A stretch of DNA of 44,035 nucleotides from Pirellulales bacterium. Its GTDB lineage: Bacteria > Planctomycetota > Planctomycetia > Pirellulales > S012-138. Each line of letters opens with the position of its first letter. Position 1 is the first letter of the stretch. The notes beneath the pieces were generated by a model that did not search any database, had not been told where the DNA came from, and saw only the letters and a list, made by a program, of their open reading frames with translations. The translations under genes and the position numbers were made by a program. The DNA lies in the NCBI GenBank assembly GCA_028066245.1, contig JALCBR010000031.1, forward strand, positions 1 to 44,035, read 5' to 3'. Shown one piece after another: positions 20,539 through 38,192 of this stretch.

Positions 20539-21252
20539 TCAATCAGCCCGCTTTTCCTCCGCTTTCAGCGCGGCAGGAAGCGGCACGCACAATTCAATTG
20601 TCCGGATCAACGGATCACGTCCCTTGACGCCCTCCGGCTGATAGCGACGGGCGATCTCGCCGAGTGTTTTCCAGCGCACGTTGTGCGTGGGTGCTTCGAA
20701 CTTCGGCTCTGGGATTTCTCCTGCGGCGATTTTTTGCAGCAAAGCCTCGCGAATGATCATGATCCGCAGTTTGCGCACCCGAACATCTGCGTCCGGCTCA
20801 GACGTCAGGACGAAGACGTAGATTTCCTTGCGAACCGGAATCCGCATGTCCGCCGCCAGCATGCCGGCTGAAAACTTCTCGGATAGCTCATTCAGAATCG
20901 CGATCTGGATCAGCCAACCCTCGTCCTTGGGCAATGGGACAATCGGGTCCGCGACCGTCGTTCGTTTGGCCGACTTCAAGACGAGCCGCATCGCCTGCTC
21001 GTTATTGAGAAGCACCTCCTTGAGTTCCTTTTCAATCAACGTTCGAATCCTCAGGTATCCGCCCTCGATGATGTTGAGCGAGAAGTTGACCCGCCCGAGG
21101 AACTGCCGTTGATACCATCGTTGGCGGTCAATGAGCTTCTTCAGCAACCAGGCCAGGAGCGTGGATCCGATGATCACGAGCACCTTCAGCCAGTGCTCGG
21201 AAATGAAGTCCGTCACCAGCGACTGGGCTCGCTCCCAGAAGTTGTTGAACAT
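20539..21252 (-). CDS. Hypothetical protein with one N-terminal membrane helix
   Basis: ATG 21252 is preceded by GGAGG at a good distance, so the start is firm. The 237-residue product has a single hydrophobic segment (about residues 20-38, LKVLVIIGSTLLAWLLKKL), then a soluble, charged domain of about 195 residues. Motifs include RVNFSLNIIEGGYLRIRTL, VFVLTSEPDADVRVRKLR and MIIREALLQKIAAGE. The overall look is of a membrane-tethered protein with most of its mass in the cytoplasm. I do not recognise the family. Upstream of the ribosome site the 5' region has two copies of GGTGTAGTAAC (plus-strand reading). It converges on asnS with only a 9-bp gap. Confidence 0.8.
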   Translation of the reverse strand: MFNNFWERAQSLVTDFISEHWLKVLVIIGSTLLAWLLKKLIDRQRWYQRQFLGRVNFSLNIIEGGYLRIRTLIEKELKEVLLNNEQAMRLVLKSAKRTTVADPIVPLPKDEGWLIQIAILNELSEKFSAGMLAADMRIPVRKEIYVFVLTSEPDADVRVRKLRIMIIREALLQKIAAGEIPEPKFEAPTHNVRWKTLGEIARRYQPEGVKGRDPLIRTIELCVPLPAALKAEEKRAD

Positions 21253-21860: not shown

Positions 21861-24470
21861 CTACGGTCGATTCTTGCAGCGTTTCAGCAGCGCCTCGAAT
21901 TGCTGCTTTAATTCGGGATTGCCTAGCTCCGGATGCAGCGCTTGCGTGACAAGGATAATCTTGGCCGCTTGATCTTTGTTCCCCAACCCCTCATGGGTGG
22001 CGGCCAAACCGTATTTCGCGCGGAACCACCGTGGCGAACCGGCTTTGCTGCCGCGCTCGATCTTTCTCCATAGCCCAAGGGCGTCGGGCAGCTTCTCTGT
22101 ACTGCCGGCGTCCAGCAGCGTTTGAGCATAGGCTTCGAGGATGTCGCCGTTTCGCGGATATTGCTCGTGGAGTTGTTCATAGTGAGCGATTGCGTAGGCC
22201 AGGTTGCCGGCAGCGGCTGTCGCGGCAGCTAACAGGATGCGCAGTTGCTGTAACTCCTCCTCGGCTAAGTCGAGCTCTTTCCTTCGAACTCGTTCATACA
22301 CGGGCCCGCCGGCGGCCAATTGCAATTCTCCAATCTCGCGCCGTTTTTCCCGTGGCAGCCGTTGGGCGACATCGTCTAGCCCGGCCAACAGCGTAATCAC
22401 CGATGACGGTTGCGCATCGGCGAGCGAATCGACCATTTGCTGGGCGAGTTGCAGGTTGTTGTTCTCTGTGTTTGCCGATCCGACCAACGCCCATACGTAG
22501 CTCGACTTGAGTCGCACTCGCCACTCGTCCGGAGCGATGGAGTTGTCTCGGAGTGCTCGTTCCAGGATGGAGATACAACGTGCGTAGGGGTCTTGTGTGA
22601 ACAATAATCGCAATTCCACGGCTGCCAGTGCGGCTTCACGCTGGGCCGGACTCCACCGCTCTGGCCAGGTGGGATTCTCACCGGAGCCAAACAAGATGTT
22701 TTCAAAGACAGCGGCGGCCTGTCGAGCAGGTTGGTCGACATCTTCACCCCCCGCACGACGGCTGCTCAGCCATTGTCGGTGAACGCGTGCGGCGGCCAGA
22801 ATCCCGGGCAGCGCGTTGCTATCTTGCGGTGGAATTTCCAGATAGGTTTGCGCGGCCTGGGCCCATTCTTGCCGGTGCTCATAGACGCGGGCGAGTGCCC
22901 AAACCGCCTGGCCGGTGGTCTCATGCATTGGCCAGGTCGTTTGGTGCTCAACCAACAGCTCGACATATGCGGTAAGGTCTGGAGGCGAAGTTTCGCGAGC
23001 GATTTGTGCGGCGTTGTGAATGGCCAGCATATGTGCGTCAGGCGATTCCGCGTTTCCCGTGTACTTCATCGAGACTTCGCGACAACGCCGTAGTGCGTCG
23101 GCGTATTCCAAACGCTCATGCTGAACCACGGCCGCTTTATGAGCCAACTGAAAAGCTTCTTCCGGCTGGCCTGCCGTCTCCGCTGCCGCAACCGCTTGAT
23201 CGAAGAGATTCAAGGCCTCATCAATCTGCCCCTGCTGCAGTAACGCCTGAGCATTTCCGGCAAGCATTGCCATGTCGCCCGTGAGTGCGGCTCCGGTCAC
23301 ACTGCTGGCCAACAATGTCTGCGCCCGCAGCCCCCAATACGGATCGTAGTACCGCTGGATGCGTTTGACGGCTTCAATGGCCCGGTTCTGCCAGTCTTCC
23401 ACTTCATCGGAGTTCGCCGCCTTGTGTGCCTGCCATTGAGCCAGAGACGTTTCCAGCAACGCGTAGTCCAATTCCGCGAAGCGACGGACCAGGAGCTCAA
23501 TCACCTGTTGAAATACGTTAAGAGCCGCGGCCAGGTCATGACTCGCCAAGTGAATTCTCACCTGTTCCGCCCGAGCATCCAGCACAACTTGCGGTGGCGG
23601 ATCTTCGACTAAGAGCGAGTCCAACCGACGCTGCGCCAATCTTGACAGCCCGCGCAGCCGGTAGCATTTGATGGACTCCAAGCGTGCCTGCCATGCTAAG
23701 GGATCAACGGTTTGCAACTTGGCCAGTTCATCCAGAATCTGCGCAGCGGAAATCAAAGCCGACTCATGATCGAGGGATTTCGGCTCATAGCACAAGCCTT
23801 GCTGCATATAAGCTCGCGCTGTTTGAAAGCGGAGGTTCTTTTGCAGCGCCAGGAGTTGTTCACGGGAAGGGATGGTCGGATCGATGTTGCGGCCACGGTT
23901 GCTCAAGGCTTCGAGCAGGTCTGGCGTGAGCTCTTTGATTTCGTCAAGTGCGTCACGCAGGTACGACTTGGCTTCTTCAATCAGTCGCGGGTTGTTGCCG
24001 GCGACCTCCGCCCTTTGCCGTGTCCAAATGCCGCGGTCAAGTTGCACCATGACTGCCTGTGCCCGAACAACCGTTGACCAGGGGCTGTTCGCGTTTTGCT
24101 CGCCGAACTGTTGGGCCGTGTTCGACGCGCGCCCCCAAAGATCATCTCCTTGATTGCCGCGAGTTTGCATTGCCTGGCTGGCCAGCGTCTGCGAAAGCTG
24201 GACGACGATGTCCGCTTGCCGTTTGAGCGACAAGTCATCGCGCTCCAGCACGCGTAGACAATAGGATTCGGCCAGGGCGAACAGTTGGCGGCGGCGGAGC
24301 CCGGACAGGTACTCGGCATCAACTTCCGCACTCTCTATGTCTTGAGCCGTGGCGACCTTGGGAACACTAAGCGCAGAACACCATAAGGCGATCACTGAGA
24401 AGACCACTGCCAGTCGTTTCCCGGCAGCGCTTCGCAGTTGCCATTTTCGCTCTGTCCGCCGCTTGTTCAT
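21861..24470 (-). CDS. Large secreted TPR/helical-repeat protein of the ExbBD operon
   Basis: The start is placed at ATG 24470, which gives an arginine/lysine-rich N-terminus and a signal peptide (LAVVFSVIALWCSALSVPKVATA) and 869 residues in all; the open frame upstream overlaps the preceding ExbD gene in another frame. The mature protein is almost wholly alpha-helical with many TPR-like pairs, for example QALLQQGQIDEALNLFDQAV, AVWALARVYEHRQEWAQAAQ and LAYAIAHYEQLHEQYPRNGD. Such repeats bind other proteins. It lies 37 bp downstream of the second exbD, the last gene in the run. The likely place is the periplasm. No enzyme motif is seen. It may be the structural partner that senses or transmits the force generated by ExbB/ExbD. 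Confidence 0.85.
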   Translation of the reverse strand: MNKRRTERKWQLRSAAGKRLAVVFSVIALWCSALSVPKVATAQDIESAEVDAEYLSGLRRRQLFALAESYCLRVLERDDLSLKRQADIVVQLSQTLASQAMQTRGNQGDDLWGRASNTAQQFGEQNANSPWSTVVRAQAVMVQLDRGIWTRQRAEVAGNNPRLIEEAKSYLRDALDEIKELTPDLLEALSNRGRNIDPTIPSREQLLALQKNLRFQTARAYMQQGLCYEPKSLDHESALISAAQILDELAKLQTVDPLAWQARLESIKCYRLRGLSRLAQRRLDSLLVEDPPPQVVLDARAEQVRIHLASHDLAAALNVFQQVIELLVRRFAELDYALLETSLAQWQAHKAANSDEVEDWQNRAIEAVKRIQRYYDPYWGLRAQTLLASSVTGAALTGDMAMLAGNAQALLQQGQIDEALNLFDQAVAAAETAGQPEEAFQLAHKAAVVQHERLEYADALRRCREVSMKYTGNAESPDAHMLAIHNAAQIARETSPPDLTAYVELLVEHQTTWPMHETTGQAVWALARVYEHRQEWAQAAQTYLEIPPQDSNALPGILAAARVHRQWLSSRRAGGEDVDQPARQAAAVFENILFGSGENPTWPERWSPAQREAALAAVELRLLFTQDPYARCISILERALRDNSIAPDEWRVRLKSSYVWALVGSANTENNNLQLAQQMVDSLADAQPSSVITLLAGLDDVAQRLPREKRREIGELQLAAGGPVYERVRRKELDLAEEELQQLRILLAAATAAAGNLAYAIAHYEQLHEQYPRNGDILEAYAQTLLDAGSTEKLPDALGLWRKIERGSKAGSPRWFRAKYGLAATHEGLGNKDQAAKIILVTQALHPELGNPELKQQFEALLKRCKNRP

Positions 24471-24507
24471 TCTTGATTCGTTGTTGCCTTTGACCGAGGT
24501 GGTACCG

Positions 24508-24957
24508 CTACTGACGCACAGGAACGGACGCCGCAAACTGAATTCTGCTAAACCCAGCCCGCCGTGAAAGATCGTAGACCTTAACCGCTTCGCCGATGCC
24601 TGCTTCTCCATCGATATCCAAGATGACGGGCAACTGATTATCCACGGCACTCAAGGTTTGCAAGAAGGACTCCAACTCATCCCGTGATTGGAACAGTGTA
24701 TCGCGAACGCTCCACGAAGGACCGCCGACGGCCGCGAGAACTTTGATCACGATTGGCTCTTCCGCGTCATCGCGAGGCTCAACGTCCTCAACCTCCATGT
24801 TGGAGCCTTGCATGGAGAGTGTCGCCGGCAGCGAGTCTTCTGGCGCTTGAAAACTCGAAGTCCAGATAAAGAAGACTAACAGCAAAAAGACAACGTCGAT
24901 CATCGGCGTCATTGTGACGTCGAGCCGTCCGCGGTCGTTTCGCTGAGGTAAACGCAT
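24508..24957 (-). CDS. ExbD/TolR family protein, second copy
   Basis: From ATG 24957 the product has 149 residues. A short cytoplasmic N-terminus (MRLPQRNDRGRLD) precedes a single membrane helix (PMIDVVFLLLVFFIW, about 18-32) with the essential Asp at about 21, and a periplasmic domain of about 110 residues. It pairs with ExbB to couple proton flow to work at the envelope. The periplasmic part, with an acidic linker (about 45-65), differs strongly from that of the first ExbD, so the two are likely to form a mixed dimer or contact different partners. The gene begins 8 bp after the first exbD stop. Confidence 0.9.
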   Translation of the reverse strand: MRLPQRNDRGRLDVTMTPMIDVVFLLLVFFIWTSSFQAPEDSLPATLSMQGSNMEVEDVEPRDDAEEPIVIKVLAAVGGPSWSVRDTLFQSRDELESFLQTLSAVDNQLPVILDIDGEAGIGEAVKVYDLSRRAGFSRIQFAASVPVRQ

Positions 24958-24965
24958 GCTGTTGG

Positions 24966-25373
24966 CTAACGCTGTGGATTGGTGACGCCAAAGGTGATGT
25001 TCCAAATGCCGCTGCGGGCACAGGCGATCATGATTGGCTCAACGTGGCGGTAGCGTGTCACTTCGTCCGACCGGATGTGCACTTCCGTGTCTTTGTCTTG
25101 TTCGCCTGCGAGTACAACTTCGAGTTGTGAGATGTCAAGCGATTGGCCAGCCATCCGCATTTTCCCGCCGGGTAGGACATTCACAACGATCCGCCGCACA
25201 ACGTCACTCTCATGTCCGGTGGTGGCCGTGGGCAACGTCAGCCCCAACTCCACTTCCTGACGAGCAAGGTGTGTAGAAACAAGGAAGAAGATGATCAGCA
25301 GAAAGACAACGTCAATCAATGGCGTCATGTTGAAGCCCACGGCTCCCCGCTCACGATACGTCGGCAAACGCAC
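24966..25373 (-). CDS. ExbD/TolR family protein, first copy (GTG start)
   Basis: This 135-residue ExbD has the same N-terminus style as the next gene (MRLPTYRERGAVGFNMTP), a membrane helix with PLIDVVFLLIIFFLV (about 18-32), an Asp at about 21 on the proton path, and a periplasmic domain ending in SGIWNITFG. The start is GTG 25373, which shares one base with the exbB stop (TAGTG), and AAAGGAG lies 6 bases upstream inside exbB. Translation of exbB and exbD1 is therefore tightly coupled, which suits a complex needing fixed subunit ratios. Confidence 0.92.
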   Translation of the reverse strand: MRLPTYRERGAVGFNMTPLIDVVFLLIIFFLVSTHLARQEVELGLTLPTATTGHESDVVRRIVVNVLPGGKMRMAGQSLDISQLEVVLAGEQDKDTEVHIRSDEVTRYRHVEPIMIACARSGIWNITFGVTNPQR

Positions 25374-26188
25374 TAACGGCTCCTTTCGCCGGCGAGACGC
25401 GAACGCTTGAACGGCGTGAAGACATGCAAGGCTTGCTGAGCCGTCTCGGCGACAAGTTGATCGACGCGATTGCGAAAATACGCAAAGGCGGCCAACGCGG
25501 GAATCGCCACGATCAGCCCTTCCACCGTCGTGACGAGCGCCAGATAGATGCCCTCAGCCAACTCCTTGGCCTGCGGCGCCCCTTGCGCCGTGGAAACATC
25601 GCGAAAGGCCATAACCATTCCGATCACTGTTCCCAGCAATCCCAGCATGGGGGCCAGATTACCAATGACGGAAAGGTACTCCACTTTGCGATACAGCCGT
25701 GCGGATTGCTCTGCCGTGGCGTCTTCCATGGCCTTCTCGATGGATGTCCACTTGCCGTCAATTTCTGCTAGCCCGGACTGGATGATGTACGAGAGCAAGC
25801 TAGGCTCCGCTTGGCATTCTTGAAGTGCTTGGGCGACATGCCCGGTCTTGAGTGTCTCGCGCACTTTTTCCGATAGGCCAGTAGGCATCAAAACTCTTGC
25901 TCGGATGTGGATCACATGCTCAACCACCAGCGCCGCGCCACCGATGGACAGCAAGAGAATGACAATTCCCACCGGCCCGCTATTGAGCACAATCTGCCAA
26001 AAGCTTGCCTGATTGGCATCAGCGGCTTGCTCCTGGTTTGTGGCTGTGCTACCTGCATCGTCAGGTTGCGCTAATGCTGGAGTACCATGCCCTGCAACGA
26101 GCACCAAGATGACTGCGAGCGTCAGCAGGAGCCGCAACGTCAGTGGTCGCAGTTGGCCGCGCCGTACAGTTGCTACGAATGGATGCAA
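25373..26188 (-). CDS. ExbB/TolQ/MotA family proton-channel protein
   Basis: The 271-residue product begins with a cleavable-looking signal region (hydrophobic about 18-33, cleavage near PALAQ), then a polar stretch, then three membrane helices at about 66-88, 165-190 and 215-238. The family motifs are NLAPMLGLLGTVIGMVMAF and ALVTTVEGLIVAIPALAAF, which line the proton path with ExbD. An extended N-terminus with its own signal is common in ExbB of Planctomycetes and other large-genome bacteria. The start is TTG 26188, supported by GAGGAG 8 bases upstream. It is followed without a gap by exbD. Confidence 0.93.
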   Translation of the reverse strand: MHPFVATVRRGQLRPLTLRLLLTLAVILVLVAGHGTPALAQPDDAGSTATNQEQAADANQASFWQIVLNSGPVGIVILLLSIGGAALVVEHVIHIRARVLMPTGLSEKVRETLKTGHVAQALQECQAEPSLLSYIIQSGLAEIDGKWTSIEKAMEDATAEQSARLYRKVEYLSVIGNLAPMLGLLGTVIGMVMAFRDVSTAQGAPQAKELAEGIYLALVTTVEGLIVAIPALAAFAYFRNRVDQLVAETAQQALHVFTPFKRSRLAGERSR

Positions 26189-26272
26189 AAGCGGATCTCC
26201 TCGTTGTTAGGCAGGATGGCCGTGCTGGAGGTCTGCGTCTCTCAGTTGTGGCTGCGCCCCGTGCGTCATATG

Positions 26273-27346
26273 TCACGGCGCGTCACCACCACCGATCTCG
26301 TCCAAGCGTTCCTTCGCTTCTTGGCTTTCTGGAAACGCGGCAAACTCGTCCAGTAACTCATTGTAGAGTCTTGTTGCTCCGGCGGTCTGCCCCAATGCTT
26401 CGAGCTGGCGCGCGGCTTCGATCAGGCACCGCGCCCCCAGCCGACGCTGCTGGGGATAATGAATGGGAACGCGCATGAGTTTGAGCGCCGCATCTTCAGC
26501 ACGATTGATCTCTGCATTGGCGGAGCCGATGAGAAAGTAACCACCCGCCAGCAGCGAATGCGGAAAACGCTCCATCTCTTGGACCCAACGGTCAATCATG
26601 TCCTCATTCACTCGATGGAGGTCCGTTCGCCAAAGCTGCATGCGTGCCAGAGCGGCAACCCGCTGATCCGCGTCAAACCGCAAGTCGGAAAGTGCCTGTT
26701 CGGCTTCTGCGCGGCGCGTCGAAAGGAGATGACTCGCTCCCAACAATCGCGCAATCGGCTGCGGCGAATTGAGCCAGGACATTGCCTGACGCTCAAGCGG
26801 AGCTGAAGGAGGGTCAGAGACCCAGGCAAGTGGGATCGATGAAAAGTAAGGCGTGTTGGGGTCAGACGACACCAATTGCAGGAATCGCTGGCCGGCTACG
26901 TCCAATTGCCCCAAGTTTTGCCGGCAATAGATCACTCGTTCCAGGATCAGTCGTTGAACCCAGGTCCGACTTTCCAGTTCGAAGGCATTCCCAAATCCTT
27001 GCAGGGCTTTGTCGAACTCGCCCGACTCGTAGAGAGCCAACGCCTCGCGATATTCCGAGGTATGCTGCGTGTCGATGCGCAATACCCGGTCATTGCTGGC
27101 AAACGTTCGTTCCGTGCCATTGGCTAAGCGGAGCACGAGCTTGCCGCCGACATAGCTGACAATCTCCCCTCGATAGGAAAGCGTGTCAGCTGAATCTCCG
27201 ACCGAAACATAGACGGTGTCTTCATTCGTTGCCGCCAGTTTGACGGCACGTTCAGCAGGCGGCGCGCTCCACTCGCCATGACAGTCTGAAAATCCGCAGT
27301 AGCACGCTACCAGCCAAGAACAGGCGATAATCAAGCAGTGCGGCAT
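26273..27346 (-). CDS. TPR-containing envelope protein, possible lipoprotein
   Basis: ATG 27346 gives 357 residues and lies 10 bases after an AGAGGA ribosome site; GTG 27349 is also possible. The N-terminus is hydrophobic and contains SWLVAC, a match to a lipobox, although the segment before it lacks a Lys or Arg. Next comes a strand-rich part (DTLSYRGEIVSYVGGKLVL and RTFASNDRVLRIDT), then TPR-like repeats such as YREALALYESGEFDKALQGF and LLAGGYFLIGSANAEINRAE, ending in EAKERLDEIGGG. It lies between the VWA gene (24 bp) and exbB (84 bp). The likely role is a scaffold of the ExbB/ExbD machine at the membrane; this is inferred from position. Confidence 0.82.
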   Translation of the reverse strand: MPHCLIIACSWLVACYCGFSDCHGEWSAPPAERAVKLAATNEDTVYVSVGDSADTLSYRGEIVSYVGGKLVLRLANGTERTFASNDRVLRIDTQHTSEYREALALYESGEFDKALQGFGNAFELESRTWVQRLILERVIYCRQNLGQLDVAGQRFLQLVSSDPNTPYFSSIPLAWVSDPPSAPLERQAMSWLNSPQPIARLLGASHLLSTRRAEAEQALSDLRFDADQRVAALARMQLWRTDLHRVNEDMIDRWVQEMERFPHSLLAGGYFLIGSANAEINRAEDAALKLMRVPIHYPQQRRLGARCLIEAARQLEALGQTAGATRLYNELLDEFAAFPESQEAKERLDEIGGGDAP

Positions 27347-27370
27347 CACAAGCAAGCAAATCCTCTGTGG

Positions 27371-28459
27371 TCAGTCAATGGCGTTGGTGCTGACGAAGCG
27401 ATACTCACCGTTGTTCTGCTGGGCGAGTTTGCGCAGATTATTCTTGGCTGCATCACCCTGGGTAGGTGCGAATTCGATCACGTTGATGGAGACACTGCCG
27501 CCGTTGTTCTTCCGGCGAATGGACTCCAGGTCGATATAGTTCAAGTTGCTCTGCGAATCGCTGAGGAAGAAAACAACATCTGGTCCGTAGGCCAAGGCCT
27601 TGAGAATTGCCTGCGCGCTTTCGGTATTTCCTGTGGCTCCCACGCCACCCAAGAAACGCCCGGCCAAAGTCTTATTCTGTTCCGTGGCAAAGTACATCTG
27701 CTCTGACTTCCCGGCGATGCGGAAGGGCAGAATGTCATGATTGTAGAATAGGATCTGAAACCGAGTGTGCTCATCCAGATGTCGCAAGCTGGCTTGGGCT
27801 TGCGTGACCGCATAATTCAGCCGGCTACCGACATGGCCATCGCCCATGCTGGCGGAGCGATCGATCAGGTACACAAAACTGCTGCCCTCAGCCGTCATGG
27901 ACATGAATGTTGTCCGTGACGTATGGCCTGCAGCCCGTGGTTGGCCAGGGTTGCTGATGATTTCACTCAGTCCGCCGCCATTGCCACTATTGCCCGTGGC
28001 TGCCGTGGGACCAATCGCGTCAAGTTCCAGCGGATTGATGCTGGGCGTGACGGAAGGGGCATCGGCAAGCGGATCAGAGCTGGGCGCGTCAACAAGTTGG
28101 TCCAGAGCGTTGGCGCTTTCCTCGGTGTAGTACTTTTCGCCCTCGTCCGTCATTTGCTTGAGGACGATTTCACCGCCGATGGTGGTGGAGTCATCGGCTT
28201 TCATGCCAACTGGTCGAAGTTGGATTGTCATCGCAGCGGCGACGATCAGAATCACGTGAAAGATCACGGAGATCAACCAGGCGGGCAGCGGATTCCGTGG
28301 TTCGAACTCAACGGTACTCCCGTCACCAACGTCCGATCTTGCATGTGCTGCTTTTGACTTGGCGACGGGTGCCGCCACTGGAACAGCTGATGGTGGAGAG
28401 TCCACAGCGGACGTTTTCTGCGGCGCCCGACGTGGATCAGGGGGGTGTGACTGGCTCAT
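27371..28459 (-). CDS. Membrane-anchored VWA-domain protein with TonB-like topology
   Basis: The 362-residue product has a cytoplasmic, Pro/Ala-rich N-terminus of about 58 residues, one membrane helix (about 60-80, WLISVIFHVILIVAAAMTIQ), an acidic linker with a Gly/Asn-rich end (about 90-170) and a periplasmic von Willebrand A domain. The MIDAS metal motif is DRSASMG (about 200-206), with a later Thr/Asp set (GNTESAQAILKAL and VVFFLSDSQSN). The single helix with a Pro-rich side resembles TonB/TolA, which also work with ExbB/ExbD, but TonB's C-terminal domain is replaced by VWA. It is the first gene of the six-gene minus-strand run. VWA domains bind proteins in a metal-dependent way. Confidence 0.88.
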   Translation of the reverse strand: MSQSHPPDPRRAPQKTSAVDSPPSAVPVAAPVAKSKAAHARSDVGDGSTVEFEPRNPLPAWLISVIFHVILIVAAAMTIQLRPVGMKADDSTTIGGEIVLKQMTDEGEKYYTEESANALDQLVDAPSSDPLADAPSVTPSINPLELDAIGPTAATGNSGNGGGLSEIISNPGQPRAAGHTSRTTFMSMTAEGSSFVYLIDRSASMGDGHVGSRLNYAVTQAQASLRHLDEHTRFQILFYNHDILPFRIAGKSEQMYFATEQNKTLAGRFLGGVGATGNTESAQAILKALAYGPDVVFFLSDSQSNLNYIDLESIRRKNNGGSVSINVIEFAPTQGDAAKNNLRKLAQQNNGEYRFVSTNAID

Positions 28460-28655
28460 TGACGCAGACCCCGTAGATTGTGCCTCTTGAAAGCAAGCTC
28501 AGCGCTACAGTCAACGGTTCCCAGGTTGACCATATTTCCCAATTCTAGGTCTCATCAGAACTTCGGTCAACGTAAGTGGCTCGCATAAGCAACGGCTGAC
28601 GCCATGCCTGGGGTGCCGAAAATGTCGTGACGGAGGCGATGCTGTCTCATTGCGT

Positions 28656-29984
28656 TCAAGCAGCTTCTCGCTGCCTTATCTGCACAGACCCGGCTATTGC
28701 AAGTAAGAACTGGATCGTTTGCTGCGTTGCGCCCTGCTGAGCGATGACTAATCTCTTGGCCCGCTCTTCCATTTCGCCAGTTTTGACCGGATTCGTCAGG
28801 CACTCACGAACGAATTCCGTCATCTCTTGCTGGTCATGGACAACTGTCGCACAGTCTTCCTGCTTCATCATCTCGACGACATCTCGGAAGTTCTTGGTCT
28901 TGGGACCAAACGAAACGGCCGCGCCATACGCCGCCGGTTCAATCATGTTCTGCCCTCCGCGCGTGCCCATACTACCGCCGACGAACGCGATGTAAGCAAC
29001 GCCCCACCACGCGCCCAATTCGCCAACGGTATCAATGAGCAAGACCGGTTTGCCGGCGTGGGCCGAGTCATTGTCCGCAGTTAGATCATCAAACTGACTG
29101 CGACGTTTCCAGAGCAGGCCGCTTTCGTTCAACAGGCGCGCGACGGTGTCGAACCGTTCTGGGTGTCGTGGCACCAAGATCAATCGTAGGTCAGGATGTG
29201 CATCGTGTAGCTGTTTGTAGACTCCAATGGCCAGCGCCTCTTCTGGGGCTTGCGTGCTGCCGGCCAAGAAGACCTTCTCTGAGTTATCAATCCCGGCAAG
29301 CGTTCTCATGCGGCGCGTCCGCTCGTTTTCACGATCCGTTTGGGCATTGTCGAACTTGATCGACCCCGTGGTGTGGATTCGTTCCGTAGGGATGCCCAGG
29401 AGCTCAAACCGCTTAGCGTAATCCATATTTTGTGCGGCGATTCCGTCGAGCTGCTGAAGCACGCTCCGCATCAGCCAGCCGAGCCGACGATAGCCACGAA
29501 AACTCTTCTCACTCAGCCGCGCGTTGACAACCGCAACTTTGACGTCACCGCCAGCGGCCCGACGAATCAAGTTCGGCCACAATTCCAACTCAGCAAGAAC
29601 CAGTAGATCCGGAGCGATATTCGCCAGCGCCCGATCAACCGCCCAAGTGAAATCCAGCGGGGCGTAGAAAACGGTATGTTCCGAATACTTCTCACGCGCG
29701 AGTTCGTAGCCGGTATCCGTCGTTGTCGAAATGACGCATTCCCATTCCGGACGTTCACGGGCAATGCCTTCTAGCAAGGGCGCGAGCAGATTGACTTCAC
29801 CGACACTGACAGCATGGAACCAGATGCGAAAGCGATCGCGAGTCAGTTTTGGAGCGTGGCCGAGAAGCTTCTCTGCCCAACCCCGTCGATAGCGTCCCGT
29901 CCGCCACGACCGATACAACAGCCACGGAGAGATGACAATCAGCAGGAGCAAGTATGCAATATTGAAGAGCCAGGCCACGAGCAT
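28656..29984 (-). CDS. waaA: 3-deoxy-D-manno-octulosonic acid (Kdo) transferase
   Basis: WaaA (KdtA) adds Kdo from CMP-Kdo to lipid A precursor at the inner face of the cytoplasmic membrane. The 442-residue product has an N-terminal membrane anchor (about 5-25). The GT30 N-domain carries WFHAVSVGEVNLLAPLL, with the catalytic-base Glu in GEVN, and LLVLAELELWPNLI. The C-domain includes GSTQAPEEALAIGVYKQL and LILVPRHPERFD. The motif GGQNMIEPAAYGAAVSFGP is the sugar-nucleotide site. The length is normal. ATG 29984 follows AGGAAAGG. It points to a lipid A-based outer membrane, agreeing with lpxD and lpxI further right. It is placed after the kinase gene on the same strand with a 187-bp gap. Confidence 0.95.
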   Translation of the reverse strand: MLVAWLFNIAYLLLLIVISPWLLYRSWRTGRYRRGWAEKLLGHAPKLTRDRFRIWFHAVSVGEVNLLAPLLEGIARERPEWECVISTTTDTGYELAREKYSEHTVFYAPLDFTWAVDRALANIAPDLLVLAELELWPNLIRRAAGGDVKVAVVNARLSEKSFRGYRRLGWLMRSVLQQLDGIAAQNMDYAKRFELLGIPTERIHTTGSIKFDNAQTDRENERTRRMRTLAGIDNSEKVFLAGSTQAPEEALAIGVYKQLHDAHPDLRLILVPRHPERFDTVARLLNESGLLWKRRSQFDDLTADNDSAHAGKPVLLIDTVGELGAWWGVAYIAFVGGSMGTRGGQNMIEPAAYGAAVSFGPKTKNFRDVVEMMKQEDCATVVHDQQEMTEFVRECLTNPVKTGEMEERAKRLVIAQQGATQQTIQFLLAIAGSVQIRQREAA

Positions 29985-30171: not shown

Positions 30172-33100
30172 TCAGACAAACTGTTCTCGCAGTTGTTTAA
30201 AGGCCTCGCGGACTCGGATTCGGGGTGTCGTCTCGTCGATGCCAAGTTCTGTCGCCAAGGCTTTCGCCGCTGATGCCTGCTCTTCTGCGACGTTTCTCTG
30301 ACCTGCTGCTGCCAGTGCTCGCGCATGGGCCGCCATGTAGAGAAATCCATCGGGTTTACGCAAAGCGTTGAGCCCCTCCAAGGTTTCCAGAGCTTCTTGC
30401 AGCGCGGAGGATGCTTTTGCGTGGTCCCCTTGCATTTCGAGAACGGTGCCGAGATCGCCTCGGCACATGGCGATCTGGGCACGGTTTCCCAGCTCGTGGT
30501 GGATCTTGATTGCCGCCTCAATGGCAGTTTGAGCCTCCTCCAGCCGACCCAAAGCAGCCAAGACAGCACCACGATTGCCGAGGTTGATAGCAACGCCTGA
30601 ACGATTCCCCAACTCTCGATTCAAGGCTTCCGCGCGATCAAAGCAGGTTTGCGCTTCTTCGTAGTCGCCACGGTCTGCCAGAGCCAGGCCTCGATTTCCT
30701 TGATTTGTTGCGACGCCACGTTTCTCACCAAGTTGCCGCGTTGTTCGCTCGGCCTCGTTGTAGCAGCGAATGGCTTCATCGTAATTCCCCGCTTCCGCCA
30801 GCGCCATTCCCCGACTACTGGTGGCCAGGTGCAGTGTTCGTTTGTCGCCACGACGCCGGGCGATCGTTTCCGCTTCCAGGAAACACTTGTCTGCAACGGC
30901 GAAGTCTCCGCGAGCCATGAACACATGTCCGCGCTGCCGCGAGATGCCTGCCAGCAGAGCATCCTCTCCTTCCGCGCGGGCGATCTGCCCGGCTTCGTCA
31001 TAGGCGGCAAGCGCATCATCAAATTCGCCTTGCTGCCACAGCGTAAACCCGCGGGACGCGATTGTCCTCGCCAAGAGATGTTGCTCATCCAAGTCGCGGC
31101 TGATCTGAATCGCGTGGTCGTACGCGGCGACCGCGAGAGCGACTTCGCCACGCCCACGTCGCATTTCAGCCAGCTGCAGGAAGGCCGCAGCGGACGCAGG
31201 ACAATGGGTAACGTCCTCTGCAATCTTTGTGGCCTGTTCCGCCGCCTGCAGCGCCAAATCCCAAGCACCATCGCTACGCTGGGCTTCAGAGATTGCCGTC
31301 AGCAGGGCTATCCGACTCTCGATCGACACACCATCTAGCGGAAGCTGCAATCGCGCGACCCATTCCGTTAGCCCGCCGCGCATTTTCACAGCAGCATGCA
31401 ATGCCAAGATGGCCCTGGCAGCCAGGTCGTGTTCGCCGGCGGAGACTGCCCAATCTTCCGCCGCCAGTAAGTTTTCGCGCTCCAGCATCACGCGATCGAG
31501 CGCTTCCGGACCATCAGCCCCGGGAATTCTCTCCGACCATTGCTCCGCATAGTCGACCATGTACTCGGCAAATCGCCTTCGCAGTTCTCGTTCCTGCTCA
31601 TGCTGCTGCTTAGAGTTGCGGCGGTTGGTGCCGTACTCGCGGATGGACCGGAACATGTCGAACCGCAGTTCGTGCTGTTCGTCTCGCACGCGGAGCAGGC
31701 TCTTCTCCCGCAACGATTGCACAACATCCATCGCCAACGGAGCAGCAGGGAAGTCGTCCAGATCAATCACGGCTTCGGCTGCATCCAGAAAAAACCCACT
31801 GGAAAACACGCAAGCCTGCTCGAATGCAGCCTGTTCCCAATCGGAAAGCTGTTCGTAGGAGAGATCAATTGCCCCGGCCAGCGTCCGTTGCCGGGCGGGG
31901 ATATCTTTGCGCGTCGAACTGAGTAGTTGAAACTTGCGATCGATCTTCTTCAGCATTTGCGCTGGCTTGAGCACTTTGACCCGCGCGGCGGCCAGTTCCA
32001 GCGCAAGCGGAATACCTTCCAAGTGTGAACAGATCAAAGCGACGTCGCTGGCGGTCGCGTCGTTGAGCTGAAAGTGACGATCCACCTGCTGTGCCCGATC
32101 AACGAACAGCTGCACCGAAGCCAAGGATTCAATCTCCTCGCGCTCCAAGGTCGCACATTTATCGAGCCCAGGCGTCGTAAGATTGTCCAGTTCAAACTGT
32201 TGTTCTCCCTCGGAGCCTAACGCCGTGCGCGCCGTCGTCAGGCAAGTCATCCGTGGCGCAACACGTGTCCATGCTTCTAGACACGAAACGAGCGCCGAGA
32301 TGGCCAGATCCGCTTGGTCAAAAACCAGCAGCAAGGGACGCCGGAGCTCCAAAATGGCTCCAACCATATCGGTGGCGTCACCTTCGTCCTGCGGGGGAAT
32401 CTCAAAAGCGGTCAGGACGGCATGCGCAATCGCTTCGGCTGTCGTGGTGTTTGAGAGATCGCACCACCAGCAGCCGCCGGGAAGCCGTGGCATCAGAGCG
32501 AGTCCTAGCTCCTGTGCCAGGCGGCTTTTCCCGATCCCAGCCGCGCCGGTGAGGGTAACAAGCGAGACCCCATCATCGGTTAGCCATGACTTCAATTGCT
32601 CCTGTTCGGCATCTCGGCCGATCAACCGTCCGCTGGCGCGTGGGAATGTTCGCCCCCCCGAACTTTGGCTCGTCGATTCGCCTCGCCACCTGATGGGTCC
32701 GACTTGATCGCCGGAAGTGGAATGCGCCGCAGACGCGGCGTTCGACGCTTCCATTCTTGCCAGCGAGGTCTCGATGGAACGTCGCAGATCTTCTGCCACA
32801 TCACGCGCGGTTGAATAGCGTTCGGCGACGTTCTTGGCTAGGCACCCCTGGACAATCCGTTCCAGCGAAACCGGGATGGTATCGTCGATTTGCCGAGGTG
32901 GTTTGGGTTCCCGGTGTTTGATTTCGTCAAAGACTTCGTAAACGGACGAACCGTCAAACGGCTTTCGTCCTGTCAGCAACTCGTACAAGATCACGCCCAT
33001 TGCCCAGATGTCGCAGCGGCCGTCCAGTCGGTGTGTCTCCCCGCGAACCTGCTCAGGCGACATGTAGGCCGGTGTTCCGGAAACTTCGCCTGCGCGGCTG

Positions 33101-34188
33101 CGCTGGTCGGTTTCGAGCACGGCAAGGCCGAAATCGGCAACCCTTGGATCCCCTTGCTTGTCAATCAGGATGTTACCCGGTTTCAAGTCGCGATGAACAA
33201 GACCGAGCTTGTGTGCTTCGTGCAACGCATCGCCAACGGCGCTGATTGTCCGCGCGATCTCCGTCAACGTCATCGAACGTTGGCGGGAAAGCGTTCGCAG
33301 CGTCGACCCTTCGATGTATTCCATCACAATGAAACACAGCTTGTCTTGGCGTTCGATATCGAACACTCGCACCGCGGAAGGGTGCCTCAACTGGGCCGCC
33401 ATTCGTGCTTCGCGCATGAACAACTCGACCGATTCCTCGTCCGATAGCCGATCGGTATGCGGAACTTTGATGGCTACCTGGCGATCCAAGTCTGGGTCGC
33501 GGGCTAAATAGACCGCGCCAAAGGCGCCTTCACCCAAGACACTTTCCACGGCATAGCGGCCAATTTTTTCTGGGATCGCGAGCGAATCGCTGGCGTCCTC
33601 CGATGTCGAAGCGGACGCAACTCGCTCTTTCTCCACTGCCACGGGTTTGGACGGCGCGGGGTCCCCGCTATCTGCGTCTGAAAGAGGTCCAGCATCCCTC
33701 TCTATCCCTGAGGATTCAGCCAGTGCGAGTTGTAACTTCTCGGAGAGTTCCTCGGCCATTGATGAGAAGCGAGAAAGGAACTCATCTTTGGTCGGGCGGT
33801 CGCCGTATTTGTGGCGGACACGAAATTCTTCCAAAGCCAGATCCACTGAGTTCGACAACTCCGGAATCCGGCGTAGATAGTCTTCCACGTGCGGCGTTTC
33901 CGGAAAATCGGTGGCCGATTGATCAGAAATGGAAAGCTTTGTCTCCTGCCCAAATCCGCCCCGTTTGTTCCAAAGTCGCCAACGGTACTCAAGGTCGATC
34001 TTGACCAGTTCCGCCAATGCCTCTTTCTGCGCCTCATTACCAGAGAGTTGCAGCGCTTGAACAGAAAACGCCAGGATCATGGGCGGTACGGCGTTCGCAT
34101 CGAACGCTGGCTGCCAGGCTTGCTCGAATCGTTCGAGCAACGCTTCGACATCGCGGTGCAGCCAGGAGCTGTTCTGTTCGGACGCCAT
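30172..34188 (-). CDS. Ser/Thr protein kinase fused to STAND ATPase and TPR repeats
   Basis: This 1338-residue protein combines signalling modules in one chain. Residues about 95-145 hold the EDYLRRIPEL/RFSS pre-kinase segment common in planctomycete kinases. The Hanks kinase (about 210-470) has GEGAFGAVYLA, VAIK, HRDLKPGN (332-339), DFG (352-354) and GTPAYMSPEQ, so it looks active. A STAND-type ATPase (about 520-760) follows, with Walker A TGAAGIGKSRLA, Walker B LLLVFDQAD, LTTAR and EGIPLALELAAARVKVL, the style of COG3903 predicted ATPases. The C-terminal 400 residues are TPRs (for example ALAAYDEAGQIARAEGEDAL). No membrane helix is seen, so it is cytoplasmic. It resembles mycobacterial PknK in layout. 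It is divergent from the 5-oxoprolinase gene. Confidence 0.9.
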   Translation of the reverse strand: MASEQNSSWLHRDVEALLERFEQAWQPAFDANAVPPMILAFSVQALQLSGNEAQKEALAELVKIDLEYRWRLWNKRGGFGQETKLSISDQSATDFPETPHVEDYLRRIPELSNSVDLALEEFRVRHKYGDRPTKDEFLSRFSSMAEELSEKLQLALAESSGIERDAGPLSDADSGDPAPSKPVAVEKERVASASTSEDASDSLAIPEKIGRYAVESVLGEGAFGAVYLARDPDLDRQVAIKVPHTDRLSDEESVELFMREARMAAQLRHPSAVRVFDIERQDKLCFIVMEYIEGSTLRTLSRQRSMTLTEIARTISAVGDALHEAHKLGLVHRDLKPGNILIDKQGDPRVADFGLAVLETDQRSRAGEVSGTPAYMSPEQVRGETHRLDGRCDIWAMGVILYELLTGRKPFDGSSVYEVFDEIKHREPKPPRQIDDTIPVSLERIVQGCLAKNVAERYSTARDVAEDLRRSIETSLARMEASNAASAAHSTSGDQVGPIRWRGESTSQSSGGRTFPRASGRLIGRDAEQEQLKSWLTDDGVSLVTLTGAAGIGKSRLAQELGLALMPRLPGGCWWCDLSNTTTAEAIAHAVLTAFEIPPQDEGDATDMVGAILELRRPLLLVFDQADLAISALVSCLEAWTRVAPRMTCLTTARTALGSEGEQQFELDNLTTPGLDKCATLEREEIESLASVQLFVDRAQQVDRHFQLNDATASDVALICSHLEGIPLALELAAARVKVLKPAQMLKKIDRKFQLLSSTRKDIPARQRTLAGAIDLSYEQLSDWEQAAFEQACVFSSGFFLDAAEAVIDLDDFPAAPLAMDVVQSLREKSLLRVRDEQHELRFDMFRSIREYGTNRRNSKQQHEQERELRRRFAEYMVDYAEQWSERIPGADGPEALDRVMLERENLLAAEDWAVSAGEHDLAARAILALHAAVKMRGGLTEWVARLQLPLDGVSIESRIALLTAISEAQRSDGAWDLALQAAEQATKIAEDVTHCPASAAAFLQLAEMRRGRGEVALAVAAYDHAIQISRDLDEQHLLARTIASRGFTLWQQGEFDDALAAYDEAGQIARAEGEDALLAGISRQRGHVFMARGDFAVADKCFLEAETIARRRGDKRTLHLATSSRGMALAEAGNYDEAIRCYNEAERTTRQLGEKRGVATNQGNRGLALADRGDYEEAQTCFDRAEALNRELGNRSGVAINLGNRGAVLAALGRLEEAQTAIEAAIKIHHELGNRAQIAMCRGDLGTVLEMQGDHAKASSALQEALETLEGLNALRKPDGFLYMAAHARALAAAGQRNVAEEQASAAKALATELGIDETTPRIRVREAFKQLREQFV

Positions 34189-34346
34189 GTAACTTCAGGG
34201 ATTTTCTGGGGGCGACGGAAACGGAAGGTAGGGAATGCGACAAGATGTTTGCCCCTGTCTCGCTGCAATCCGTCACTTTATCATGCCAAGCCGCGCTCGT
34301 CGCGTGCCGCTTGTGGTCAAGGGCGACTTCCGTCAAATTGGTCCGC

Positions 34347-37300
34347 ATGACGATTGCAAGTGACTGGGAGTTTTGGATTGACGTTGGCGGAACCTTTACT
34401 GATTGTTTCGGCCGTGCGCCTGATGGGTGCATCCACCGCTGCAAGGTGCTGAGCTCTGGCGTTACCCAGGGAGTCGTTTCACGAAGCTCGACTTTGCTCA
34501 AGATCATTGATCCAGCGCGCGCGAGTGATCGGAACAGCTTTTGGATCGGATATCAACTGCGGATTCTGGACGAGACAGGCGAGAAAACAGACCGCGGAAC
34601 CGTAGCAAACTTTGAGCCTGGAGCGGGAAGACTGATCCTTGAAGCTCCGTTGGAGATCGCGCCGCGAGAAGGAACTGTCTACGAGCTCGTCAGTGGCGAA
34701 GAGGCCCCGATTCTGGCTATTCGTCGCCTGCTTGGACTGCGTTTGGATGAGCCAATCCCCGATTGTTCAGTGCGGTTGGGAACCACCCGAGGTACCAACG
34801 CGTTGTTGACTCGCCGTGGCGCCGAGACAGCTTTTGTGACCACGCGCGGCTTCGCGGATGTCCTGCGAATCGGTTATCAGAATCGCCCTCAACTTTTTGA
34901 GTTGGCCATTCACATGCCGGAGCCACTGTTTGGTTGGACCTTGGAAGTTGACGAGCGTGTGACGCCATCAGGCGAAGTCTTGCGAAAGCTGGATTTGGGC
35001 GTCATTCGAGCTGACTTGCAGCGATTGAAGCAGGGCGGCGCGAGATCATTGGCGATCTGCCTGTTGAATGCGTACGCTTTCTCAGCGCACGAGGAACTTG
35101 TCGAGCAAGTCGCCAGGGAAGTGGGGTTTGAAGAGGTTAGCCGCAGCAGCGTTGTCGCGCCGTTGGTCAAGTTGGTTTCCCGTGGCGATACGACGGTTGT
35201 TGACGCGTACTTGAATCCAGTGCTCCGGCAATATGTCCGAAAGTTGGAACGCGCGCTGCCGCCAAATTCGTTGCGCATGATGACGTCCGCGGGCGGGCTT
35301 GTGTCCGCGGACAAGTTCTCCGGCAAGGACAGTATTCTGTCAGGCCCAGCCGGAGGAGTTGTCGGCTTTGCGCGCGTTGCGGAAGCGGCGGGATTCAAAA
35401 AAGCCATCGGATTCGACATGGGGGGAACGAGTACCGATGTTGCCCGCTACGATGGCGAGTTCGAACGCGAATACGAAACCGAGAAAGCTGGCGTTCGCAT
35501 CGTTGCGCCGATGATGGCGATTGAAACGGTCGCCGCCGGTGGGGGCTCCGTCTGTTCGTTCGACGGGATCAAGCTTACCGTTGGACCGGAATCAGCCGGA
35601 GCTGATCCGGGACCGGCTTGCTATGGCCGTGGTGGGCCGCTGGCCGTTACCGATGTCAACTATTATCTGGGACGCGTGCCGCCGCATCGTTTTCCGTTCG
35701 TGCTTGATCTGGCCGCCGTCGAGCGGCGCATTGATGAGCTCCGCGCAACCATCGAAACAACAACCGGGTGTGCCTATTCACGGATCGAGATTTGCGAAGG
35801 GTTTCTTCGGATAGCCAACGAGAACATGGTGCAGGCGATCCGTGCGATCAGCATTGCACGAGGCTACGATCCACGTGAGTACGTGCTTGTGGCCTTTGGT
35901 GGCGCGGCCGGTCAGCATGCGTGTGCAATTGCCGAAGAGCTAAGCATGTCGCAGGTTCTTGTGCACGAGGACGCCGGCATTTTGAGTGCCTATGGAATCG
36001 GCGCAGCGGATGTTGTCCGCACGGCCGCGGTAGGAATCTATCGCCCCTACGAGGCTGCGACGCTTCAGGAGTTGGAGTGTCAATTTGCGAACCTTGCCCG
36101 TCCGTTTCAATCCGAATTGCGCGATGAAGGTTTTGCCGCTTCGCAAGTCACGGTTCGCTGCTCGCTTGACTTGAGGTACCAAGGGCTTGACGCTTGCTTG
36201 TCAATTCCCGTTCCGGCTGACTCGCCTGGCGACTTTGATTTTGCATCCGCCTATGCGGCTGCACATGAGCAACTGTATGGCTATCGCCGCGAAGGGTGCG
36301 CGCTTGAGGTTGTTGCCGCTCGTGTTGAAGTGATCGGTCGTAGTTCTCATCAGCAGCAGCGAAGCGTGCGGCTCAACGCGAAAGTAAAGCCTGTTTCTGC
36401 GACCTTTCCTGCTGTATTCGCGAGTGAGCAGCGCGACACGGCGATCTTCTCCCGCGACGAGATCACATCTGGCGATCGTGTTTCTGGTCCGGCCATCATC
36501 CAAGAGCAAACGTCGACAACGGTTGTTGCGCCTGGGTGGAGCGCGGATGTTCTCAGTGGTAGAGAGGTCTTGTTGGAGCGACATCCTAAGGTTGGCGATG
36601 AAGCTTCCGTGTTGGCGACTGACGCCGAGACTTCCACAACTGTTGATCCGGTGATGCTGGAGGTTTTCAACAACCAGTTTGCAGGCATCGCTGAACAGAT
36701 GGGCATCACACTTCGCAACACGGCCAGTAGTGTCAACGTGAAAGAGCGACTCGACTTCAGTTGCGCTGTGTTCACGGCTGAAGGTGATCTGGTGGTCAAC
36801 GCTCCTCACATCCCAGTGCACTTGGGTGCGATGTCAGAGACCGTTAAGCGGGTTCTCTTTGACAATCCAGAGCTAACGCCGGGTGATGTGTTGGTCACGA
36901 ATGATCCGTATCGCGGGGGTTCGCACTTGCCCGATGTCACGGTTGTTACGCCCGTGCACGATCGTGAATCGGCGGAGCTGTTGTTCTTTACGGCCAGCCG
37001 AGCACACCATGCCGAGATTGGCGGAATCGCACCCGGCTCGATGCCGCCTTTCTCTGAAAATTTGGCCGAGGAGGGTGTGCTGATCCAAAATTTCAAACTC
37101 GTCAATGCAGGACATCATTGTGAGGGTGAACTTCGCGAGCTACTGACGAGCGGTGAACATCCCACGCGAGCTGTGGAAGACAACTTGGCGGATATCGCCG
37201 CACAAGCGGCCGCAAATTATCGTGGCGTGCAGGCTTTGTTGGAGTTGTGCCGACGGCATTCCTGGCCTGTCGTCCAAGCGTATATGGGACACATTCAGAC

Positions 37301-38192
37301 CGCCGCGGAGACCAAGGCCAGACGAGCTTTAAGCAAACTTGCTGATGGTCGCCGAGAGTTTACGGATCACATGGATGACGGTACTCAAATCACCGTTGGG
37401 ATCGAAGTCCAACGCGATTCCGCGACGATCGACTTCACGGGAACCGGTCCAGAATCCAGCGGGAATCTCAACGCCAATCCCGCGATTGTTACCGCGGCTG
37501 TGCTGTATGTGCTGCGGTTGCTGATTGATGAACCAATCCCACTCAATCAGGGTGTGCTCGCTCCGGTGGAGATTGTGCTCCCGACGTGCCTGCTCAATCC
37601 GCGATCCGGTCAAAGTGCGGCGGATTCTCCCGCAGTCGCCGGGGGCAACGTTGAGACCTCGCAGCGGATTGTCGATGTGCTTTTGGGAGCCCTGGGGTTG
37701 TCCGCCGCCAGTGCGGGAACGATGAACAACACGCTCTTTGGCGACGTGACCTTTGGCTACTACGAGACAATTTGCGGTGGGGCCGGCGCAACTTCCGAGT
37801 CCAACGGCGCCAACGCTGTGCAGACACATATGACCAATACCCGGCTCACCGACGCCGAGATTATCGAACAGCGCTACCCGGCGCGGGTGTTGGAGTTCGC
37901 CATCCGTCGTGGTTCAGGTGGCCAAGGTCGTTGTGCTGGTGGAGACGGCGTCATCCGCAGGATTGAATTTCTTCAAGATGTCGATATCTCGCTCGTCACT
38001 CAGCGGCGCGGTAAATTCGCACCGTATGGAATGCAGGGAGGAGCAGCGGGAAAGACCGGCCGCAACGCCATCGAGAGAGCTAACGGGATGGTTGAGGAAT
38101 TGCCTGGCGTCTGTCAGGCATCGGCAGGCCCAGCAGATGTGTTGATCATTGAAACGCCTGGCGGCGGTGGCTGGGGCAAACCGAATTCCTAG
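34347..38192 (+). CDS. 5-oxoprolinase / hydantoinase (HyuA-HyuB fusion)
   Basis: The protein of 1281 residues from ATG 34347 has the size of ATP-dependent 5-oxoprolinase (OplAH), which opens 5-oxoproline to glutamate. The N-terminal HyuA half has the ATPase-type motif [11 protein letters not shown] and later [16 protein letters not shown] and [10 protein letters not shown]. The HyuB half begins near residue 766 ([20 protein letters not shown]) and contains [44 protein letters not shown] and the C-terminal ETPGGGGWG. Fused and split forms exist, and N-methylhydantoinase or acetone carboxylase relatives share the fold, so the exact substrate is open. The longer frame from 34017 overlaps the divergent kinase gene and is rejected. 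There is no clear ribosome site. Confidence 0.92.

Follow-up and report, generated by a model that had tools for sequence, protein, structure and literature searches.

A conserved six-gene operon of Pirellulales combining a VWA protein, two TPR proteins and an ExbB/ExbD motor: a member of the proposed vWA force transducers

Contig JALCBR010000031.1 of a Pirellulales bacterium (assembly GCA_028066245.1) was analysed over positions 1 to 44,035, hereafter "the window". Between positions 21861 and 28459 six open reading frames are read from the minus strand, encoding a protein with a von Willebrand factor type A (VWA) domain, a small tetratricopeptide repeat (TPR) protein, an ExbB-type and two ExbD-type motor subunits, and a large TPR protein (Table 1). 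From the VWA gene to the large TPR gene the intergenic gaps are 15, 84, -1, 8 and 37 bases, and a single G (25373) is common to the TAG stop of exbB and the GTG start of exbD1. The compact layout reported in an earlier note on this DNA, with gaps of at most 84 bp and a one-base exbB/exbD overlap, was confirmed from the sequence. A longer alternative TTG start of ExbD2 at 25005 would overlap ExbD1, and the open frame of the large TPR protein itself begins at 24650. Promoter and terminator scans of the region returned such sites at chance level, the TTGACC-17-TAGAAT upstream of the VWA gene included.

Table 1. Genes and other features of the six-gene operon (positions are those of the window).
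Feature	Position	Strand	Length and remarks
VWA force transducer (candidate)	27371-28459	-	362 aa
Parts of the VWA protein			residues 1-58, cytoplasmic tail; ~60-80, membrane helix; ~81-178, disordered linker; ~179-362, VWA domain (VWA fold of the model: ~176-362)
Segment encoding the VWA protein's membrane helix, Ser-x3-His pair included	28208-28283	-	invariant in 26/26 aligned relatives
Small TPR protein	26273-27355	-	360 aa
ExbB/TolQ-type motor subunit	25373-26188	-	271 aa
ExbD1, TolR/ExbD type, GTG start	24966-25373	-	135 aa; helix aspartate present
ExbD2, from ATG	24508-24957	-	149 aa; helix aspartate present
Large TPR protein, from ATG 24470	21861-24470	-	869 aa
Promoter-like TTGACC-17-TAGAAT	28542-28570	-	upstream of VWA gene

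The match of the first protein to the Pfam VWA model (E 3e-4) fell under the curated cut-off; its AlphaFold model displays a clear VWA fold, with a Z of about 20 against solved VWA domains over ~160 residues. The complete set of the metal-ion-dependent adhesion site (MIDAS: D200-x-S202-x-S204, T279, D301) is present and invariant in 26 relatives. The membrane helix (AWLISVIFHVILIVAA) carries a Ser-x3-His motif formed by Ser64 and His68, which are invariant in the 26-sequence alignment (~30% identity) and nearly the sole invariant residues ahead of position 140, while the remainder of the helix varies. Their spacing equals that of TonB Ser16/His20 and TolA Ser18/His22. In E. coli structures this Ser-His pair of TonB or TolA touches the first transmembrane helix (TM1) of ExbB (Ser34/Trp38) or TolQ (Ser28/Trp32), and its histidine is essential (PMC12215075).

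The helix is followed on the periplasmic side by a linker of about 100 residues (81-178), which is disordered in the AlphaFold model, with low values of the predicted local distance difference test (pLDDT). The likeness to TonB and TolA that the earlier note had seen in the topology of the protein, i.e. one helix after a Pro-rich cytoplasmic tail, held in part. The docking motif of the helix and this periplasmic linker bear it out; the Pro-rich stretch, which is not conserved among the relatives, is not TonB-like, because it lies on the cytoplasmic side and the Pro-rich part of TonB is periplasmic. The VWA domain stands where TonB and TolA have their own C-terminal domain.

Among the VWA relatives having a hydrophobic segment, Ser-x3-His was detected by script in 112 of 121 and upon inspection in three more; the relatives without it are mostly secreted forms with a signal peptide only. 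Examples of the latter are found at loci L062 and L069-L074, where VWA-domain relatives with a signal-peptide-like N-terminus, seemingly secreted, have neither the Ser-x3-His helix nor a motor gene nearby. Where sufficient flanking DNA was available, the script placed an ExbB gene within 6 kb of 70/98 VWA genes with Ser-x3-His and of 1/10 others (Fisher p 2e-4), and after three cases had been re-sorted by inspection the counts became 71/101 and 0/7. Because Ser64 and His68 are invariant and VWA genes are associated with motor genes, the VWA protein is probably the TonB/TolA-like moving partner, or transducer, of a proton-driven ExbB/ExbD motor. The corresponding proposal of the earlier note is strongly supported by these two observations, and an independently published model (PMC12204202) agrees with it. 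The protein could instead be a static anchor or a regulator of the motor, such as a plug or an assembly factor, and the lack of direct evidence for motion and the occurrence of VWA and TPR genes without a linked motor in some lineages would fit such a role; it is nevertheless held to be unlikely, as the docking pair, the long disordered linker and the globular head together reproduce the plan of TonB and TolA.

The motor itself is of the type found in the TonB-ExbB-ExbD and TolA-TolQ-TolR systems. ExbB matches Pfam MotA_ExbB (E 1.5e-30) and keeps the channel threonines (T187 in 67/67 sequences, T220 in 66/67), as well as, on the docking side, Ser81 (67/67) and Pro230 (66/67), the counterparts of E. 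coli Ser34 and Pro190 according to a by-eye alignment of the E. coli helix. Both ExbD proteins match Pfam ExbD (E 1e-19 and 1.6e-18) and form separate orthologue groups, in which the helix-aspartate pattern is found in 66/67 (ExbD1) and 61/62 (ExbD2) sequences; the two non-matching sequences still show Asp (TSLVD, TPMID). The channel threonine and aspartate, the Ser-His docking helix and the ExbB Ser and Pro are thus shared with Ton and Tol, from which the operon differs by its two ExbD genes and by the absence of recognised receptor or TolB-Pal genes alongside.

Several observations weigh against a transducer of the TonB/TolA kind. The ExbB position that corresponds to the docking Trp (E. coli Trp38/Trp32) is mostly Val or Ala in the family, and the second half of the SHLS motif (x6-Leu, x3-Ser) is missing from the window protein, which has Ala75 and Ile79 at these positions; in the VWA relatives Leu predominates at +7. 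Because the Trp is replaced and the Leu and second Ser are absent, the docking network, which on alignment appears partly kept and partly rebuilt, must differ in detail from the E. coli interface. The incomplete motif is not decisive for class membership, since SHLS was described in "many", not all, vWA transducers (PMC12204202) and its second half is poorly conserved in Ton (PMC12215075). In the motor-box region, an RxxGIVL-like conserved stretch occurs in the relatives' consensus, and the model, of low confidence there, has no strand. In addition, about 30 VWA proteins with Ser-x3-His have no motor gene nearby, and in several genomes the VWA gene is accompanied by fused or adjacent TPR genes without a close ExbB orthologue, Ser-x3-His being retained. 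The earlier note had named the occurrence of VWA and TPR genes apart from the motor as part of a finding that would speak against the machine; this part was encountered in a minority of relatives, whose VWA proteins keep the docking residues. When the motor of the genomes with VWA and fused TPR genes was sought, the best ExbB matches turned out to be only distantly related. An unusual ExbB clade is common to four genomes in which no motor is linked to the VWA gene, and in one of them its gene adjoins the VWA gene divergently, which is suggestive only.

Loci L048, L050, L057, L067 and L068 have the TPR genes fused (~1200 aa) after the VWA gene, with Ser-x3-His kept and no motor gene nearby; L059 has a recognisable large-TPR part only. 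Pfam TPR matches were weak for both TPR proteins of the operon. The model of the small one (pLDDT 90) has a small five-strand beta-barrel near its N-terminus (residues 46-95), after which residues 100-354 form a helical, TPR-like solenoid; Foldseek returned generic TPR solenoids only, the best solved match, a weak one, being BamD. Its signal peptide is unclear in the window protein and clear, by eye, in relatives. The large TPR protein is secreted, with a signal peptide that ends, by eye, at VATA-QD. CpoB-like partners of Tol are likewise secreted TPR proteins adjoining a tolQ/tolR-type motor; the match of the small TPR protein to the YbgF model is weak and under the cut-off (E 1.4e-7), and the protein differs from these partners by its N-terminal beta-barrel and longer solenoid.

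VWA relatives are present in 39 of the 40 sampled genomes, which cover 20 families of Pirellulales. Gene order was compared over 109 non-redundant loci picked by VWA similarity. All five partner genes follow the VWA gene in the same order in 33 of these, for example in Blastopirellula marina DSM 3645 (L081), and many others reach the contig end before completion. The order recurs across Pirellulales, with a similar layout in other lineages of Planctomycetota, as the earlier note had asked of its proposal. In Gimesia (L147) it is kept and only a recognised last TPR gene is absent; three genomes of the same class outside Pirellulales show VWA-(lspA)-TPR-ExbB-ExbD-ExbD. The layout VWA-(TPR-position gene)-ExbB-ExbD-ExbD-(large gene) is seen in several genomes from other parts of the phylum, the TPR genes outside the order often being too diverged for profiles and identified by position. 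At loci L221, L222 and L223, in same-class genomes, the lipoprotein signal peptidase gene lspA sits between the VWA and small TPR genes (SPase II, E 1e-29 in L222). Two genomes contain a diverged second six-gene copy (L076, L239). In one genome (G012) the VWA gene lies apart from an otherwise complete TPR-ExbB-ExbD-ExbD-TPR cluster, all six genes being together in a genome of the same genus (L054). Judged from these comparisons, the six-gene order is old and conserved within the phylum, and not an accident of one genome. Peptide-deformylase-like (26 loci) and methionyl-tRNA-formyltransferase-like (19 loci) flanking genes, named from their sequences, were considered and set aside as chromosomal context rather than parts of the machine.

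The earlier note had regarded the machine as undescribed. This does not hold: a class of vWA force transducers was proposed in 2025 by Williams-Jones et al. for the PVC group including Planctomycetes (PMC12204202), and the operon is a member of this class of proposed transducers, its cellular role being inferred. With the Tichowtungia family described there it shares a single helix with Ser-x3-His, a ~100-residue linker, a VWA head and an adjacent TPR gene, as well as one tolQ-like and two distinct tolR-like genes. In the published text the vWA gene lies downstream of TPR-tolQ-tolR-tolR, whereas here it comes first and a large TPR gene last; this comparison was made with the text description, and Fig. 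4a of that paper may show the same arrangement. The present analysis adds the second TPR gene, the VWA-first order, the extent to which the operon is conserved, the rebuilding of the docking site, variants that are split or lack a motor, and the lack of a Pfam TonB_C match in the genome. Elsewhere in the literature, exbB and exbD of Rhodopirellula baltica, which may or may not be orthologues of the operon genes, are reported to be induced by salt stress (PMC2754498), and the essential-gene papers on P. limnophila and V. spinosum gave no match for Exb, Ton or Tol genes in their main text.

The AglRQS/Glt gliding motor of Myxococcus also combines one ExbB-type with two ExbD-type subunits (AglR/AglQ/AglS), with vWA proteins participating (PMC4488436), and gliding was raised as an option by Williams-Jones et al. 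(PMC12204202). The operon could accordingly encode a surface-motility or adhesion machine in which the VWA head, moved by the motor, serves as an adhesin contact, and the intact metal site would suit this function. The Myxococcus vWA protein CglB, however, is an outer-membrane lipoprotein, whereas the helix of the VWA protein anchors it in the inner membrane. The window showed no recognisable GltA-K-like genes, although no family-level search for them was made. Gliding is not known to be widespread in Pirellulales either, and we regard such a machine as improbable.

The genome contains seven MotA/ExbB genes, flagellar MotA among them, and two OmpA-family genes, of which one is MotB and the other lies on another contig. 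No TolB or Pal gene is among the six of the operon, and no Tol-Pal-like cluster was met in the genome, in which TolB was not searched genome-wide. In principle, the ExbB/ExbD motor could serve a conventional TonB or TolA whose gene lies elsewhere, and the VWA and TPR genes would then be neighbours without a mechanical link to it; Ton and Tol components are partly interchangeable in E. coli (PMC12215075), and one TonB-dependent-receptor-like protein with a plug is encoded in the genome, so that some TonB-like protein presumably exists. Such a canonical partner, which the earlier note had named among the findings that would overturn its proposal, did not emerge: a Pfam TonB_C search of the genome gave no match, and the sole other Ser-x3-His transducer found beside ExbB/ExbD sits in an ExbB-ExbD operon of its own. 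With the linkage between VWA and motor held across distant lineages and the docking pair kept in the helix, we consider mere neighbourhood improbable as well, and favour the VWA protein as the transducer.

Further modules with ExbB and ExbD were found in the same genome. A paralogous module without a VWA gene (L243:1899-8460, contig C42; also L240, in the relative G016) reads large TPR-small TPR-ExbB-ExbD-ExbD; its small TPR protein has the same kind of N-terminal stretch, and several relatives encode an ExbB of this type. Two other clusters, on C23 (L241:1909-8515) and C12 (L242:1159-10314), encode TPR, ExbB, ExbD and a transducer-like protein, the last protein of each having a squalene-hopene-cyclase-like C-terminal domain according to weak Pfam matches. 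For the C23 type, Ser-x3-His lies in a membrane helix in 27 of the best frames of 30 relatives (loci L247-L276, itself included), one further frame being a fragment without the helix, and most of those with the motif have ExbB and ExbD alongside. Homology to the C23 protein was detected in 40/40 genomes, with many matches spanning the toroid domain only. The squalene-cyclase-like domain is not mentioned in the vWA-transducer paper (PMC12204202), and no paper pairing it with ExbD was found in the literature collection searched. Candidate force transducers of the C23 type may form a further class, seemingly unreported so far, which is perhaps a more novel lead than the VWA operon.

Among the neighbours of the operon, a Kdo-transferase-family gene of the lipid A pathway (28656-29984) lies just upstream on the same strand, and a similar-looking gene adjoins the VWA gene at locus L088. 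Further upstream, a frame at 30172-34188 encodes a protein of 1338 aa in which a Ser/Thr protein kinase is joined to an NB-ARC/AAA-like NTPase and TPR repeats; this frame overlaps by 172 bases the start of an opposite-strand 1391-aa 5-oxoprolinase/hydantoinase frame (34017-38192). On the downstream side, a same-strand gene (20539-21252) encodes a 237-aa membrane-helix protein that has no Pfam or NCBIfam match.

In the mechanism proposed here, ExbB, presumably pentameric, would form the motor together with two ExbD helices, which probably come from an ExbD1:ExbD2 heterodimer. The single helix of the VWA protein would dock on the side of ExbB through Ser64 and His68, as in TonB and TolA, the disordered linker would span the periplasm, and the metal-site VWA head may grip a partner in the periplasm or at the outer membrane. 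Proton flow would drive the motor, and tension on the linker would pull or release the gripped partner, the two TPR proteins acting as periplasmic scaffolds or as gripped partners themselves. The near-universal presence of the genes in Pirellulales, and the lack of a recognised outer-membrane receptor gene next to the operon, in keeping with the earlier note, which had seen no TonB-dependent receptor nearby, make general envelope upkeep, i.e. the tethering of outer membrane and wall as performed by Tol-Pal, the leading candidate for its job, advanced tentatively.

Planctomycetes possess an outer membrane, and how they energise it is a question raised by a genome without a Pfam TonB_C match and with no Tol-Pal-like cluster met. 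It is conceivable, though far from assured, that several dedicated ExbB/ExbD machines operate in Planctomycetota, one with a metal-site VWA head that under load grips a partner, either a TPR protein or one of the outer membrane, and another with the squalene-cyclase-like toroid; together they would take on what Tol-Pal and part of Ton do in other bacteria. With a near-universal motor operon and a named docking residue, His68, the energisation of the outer membrane becomes testable by one point mutant, and the family of force-carrying proteins would be extended beyond TonB and TolA.

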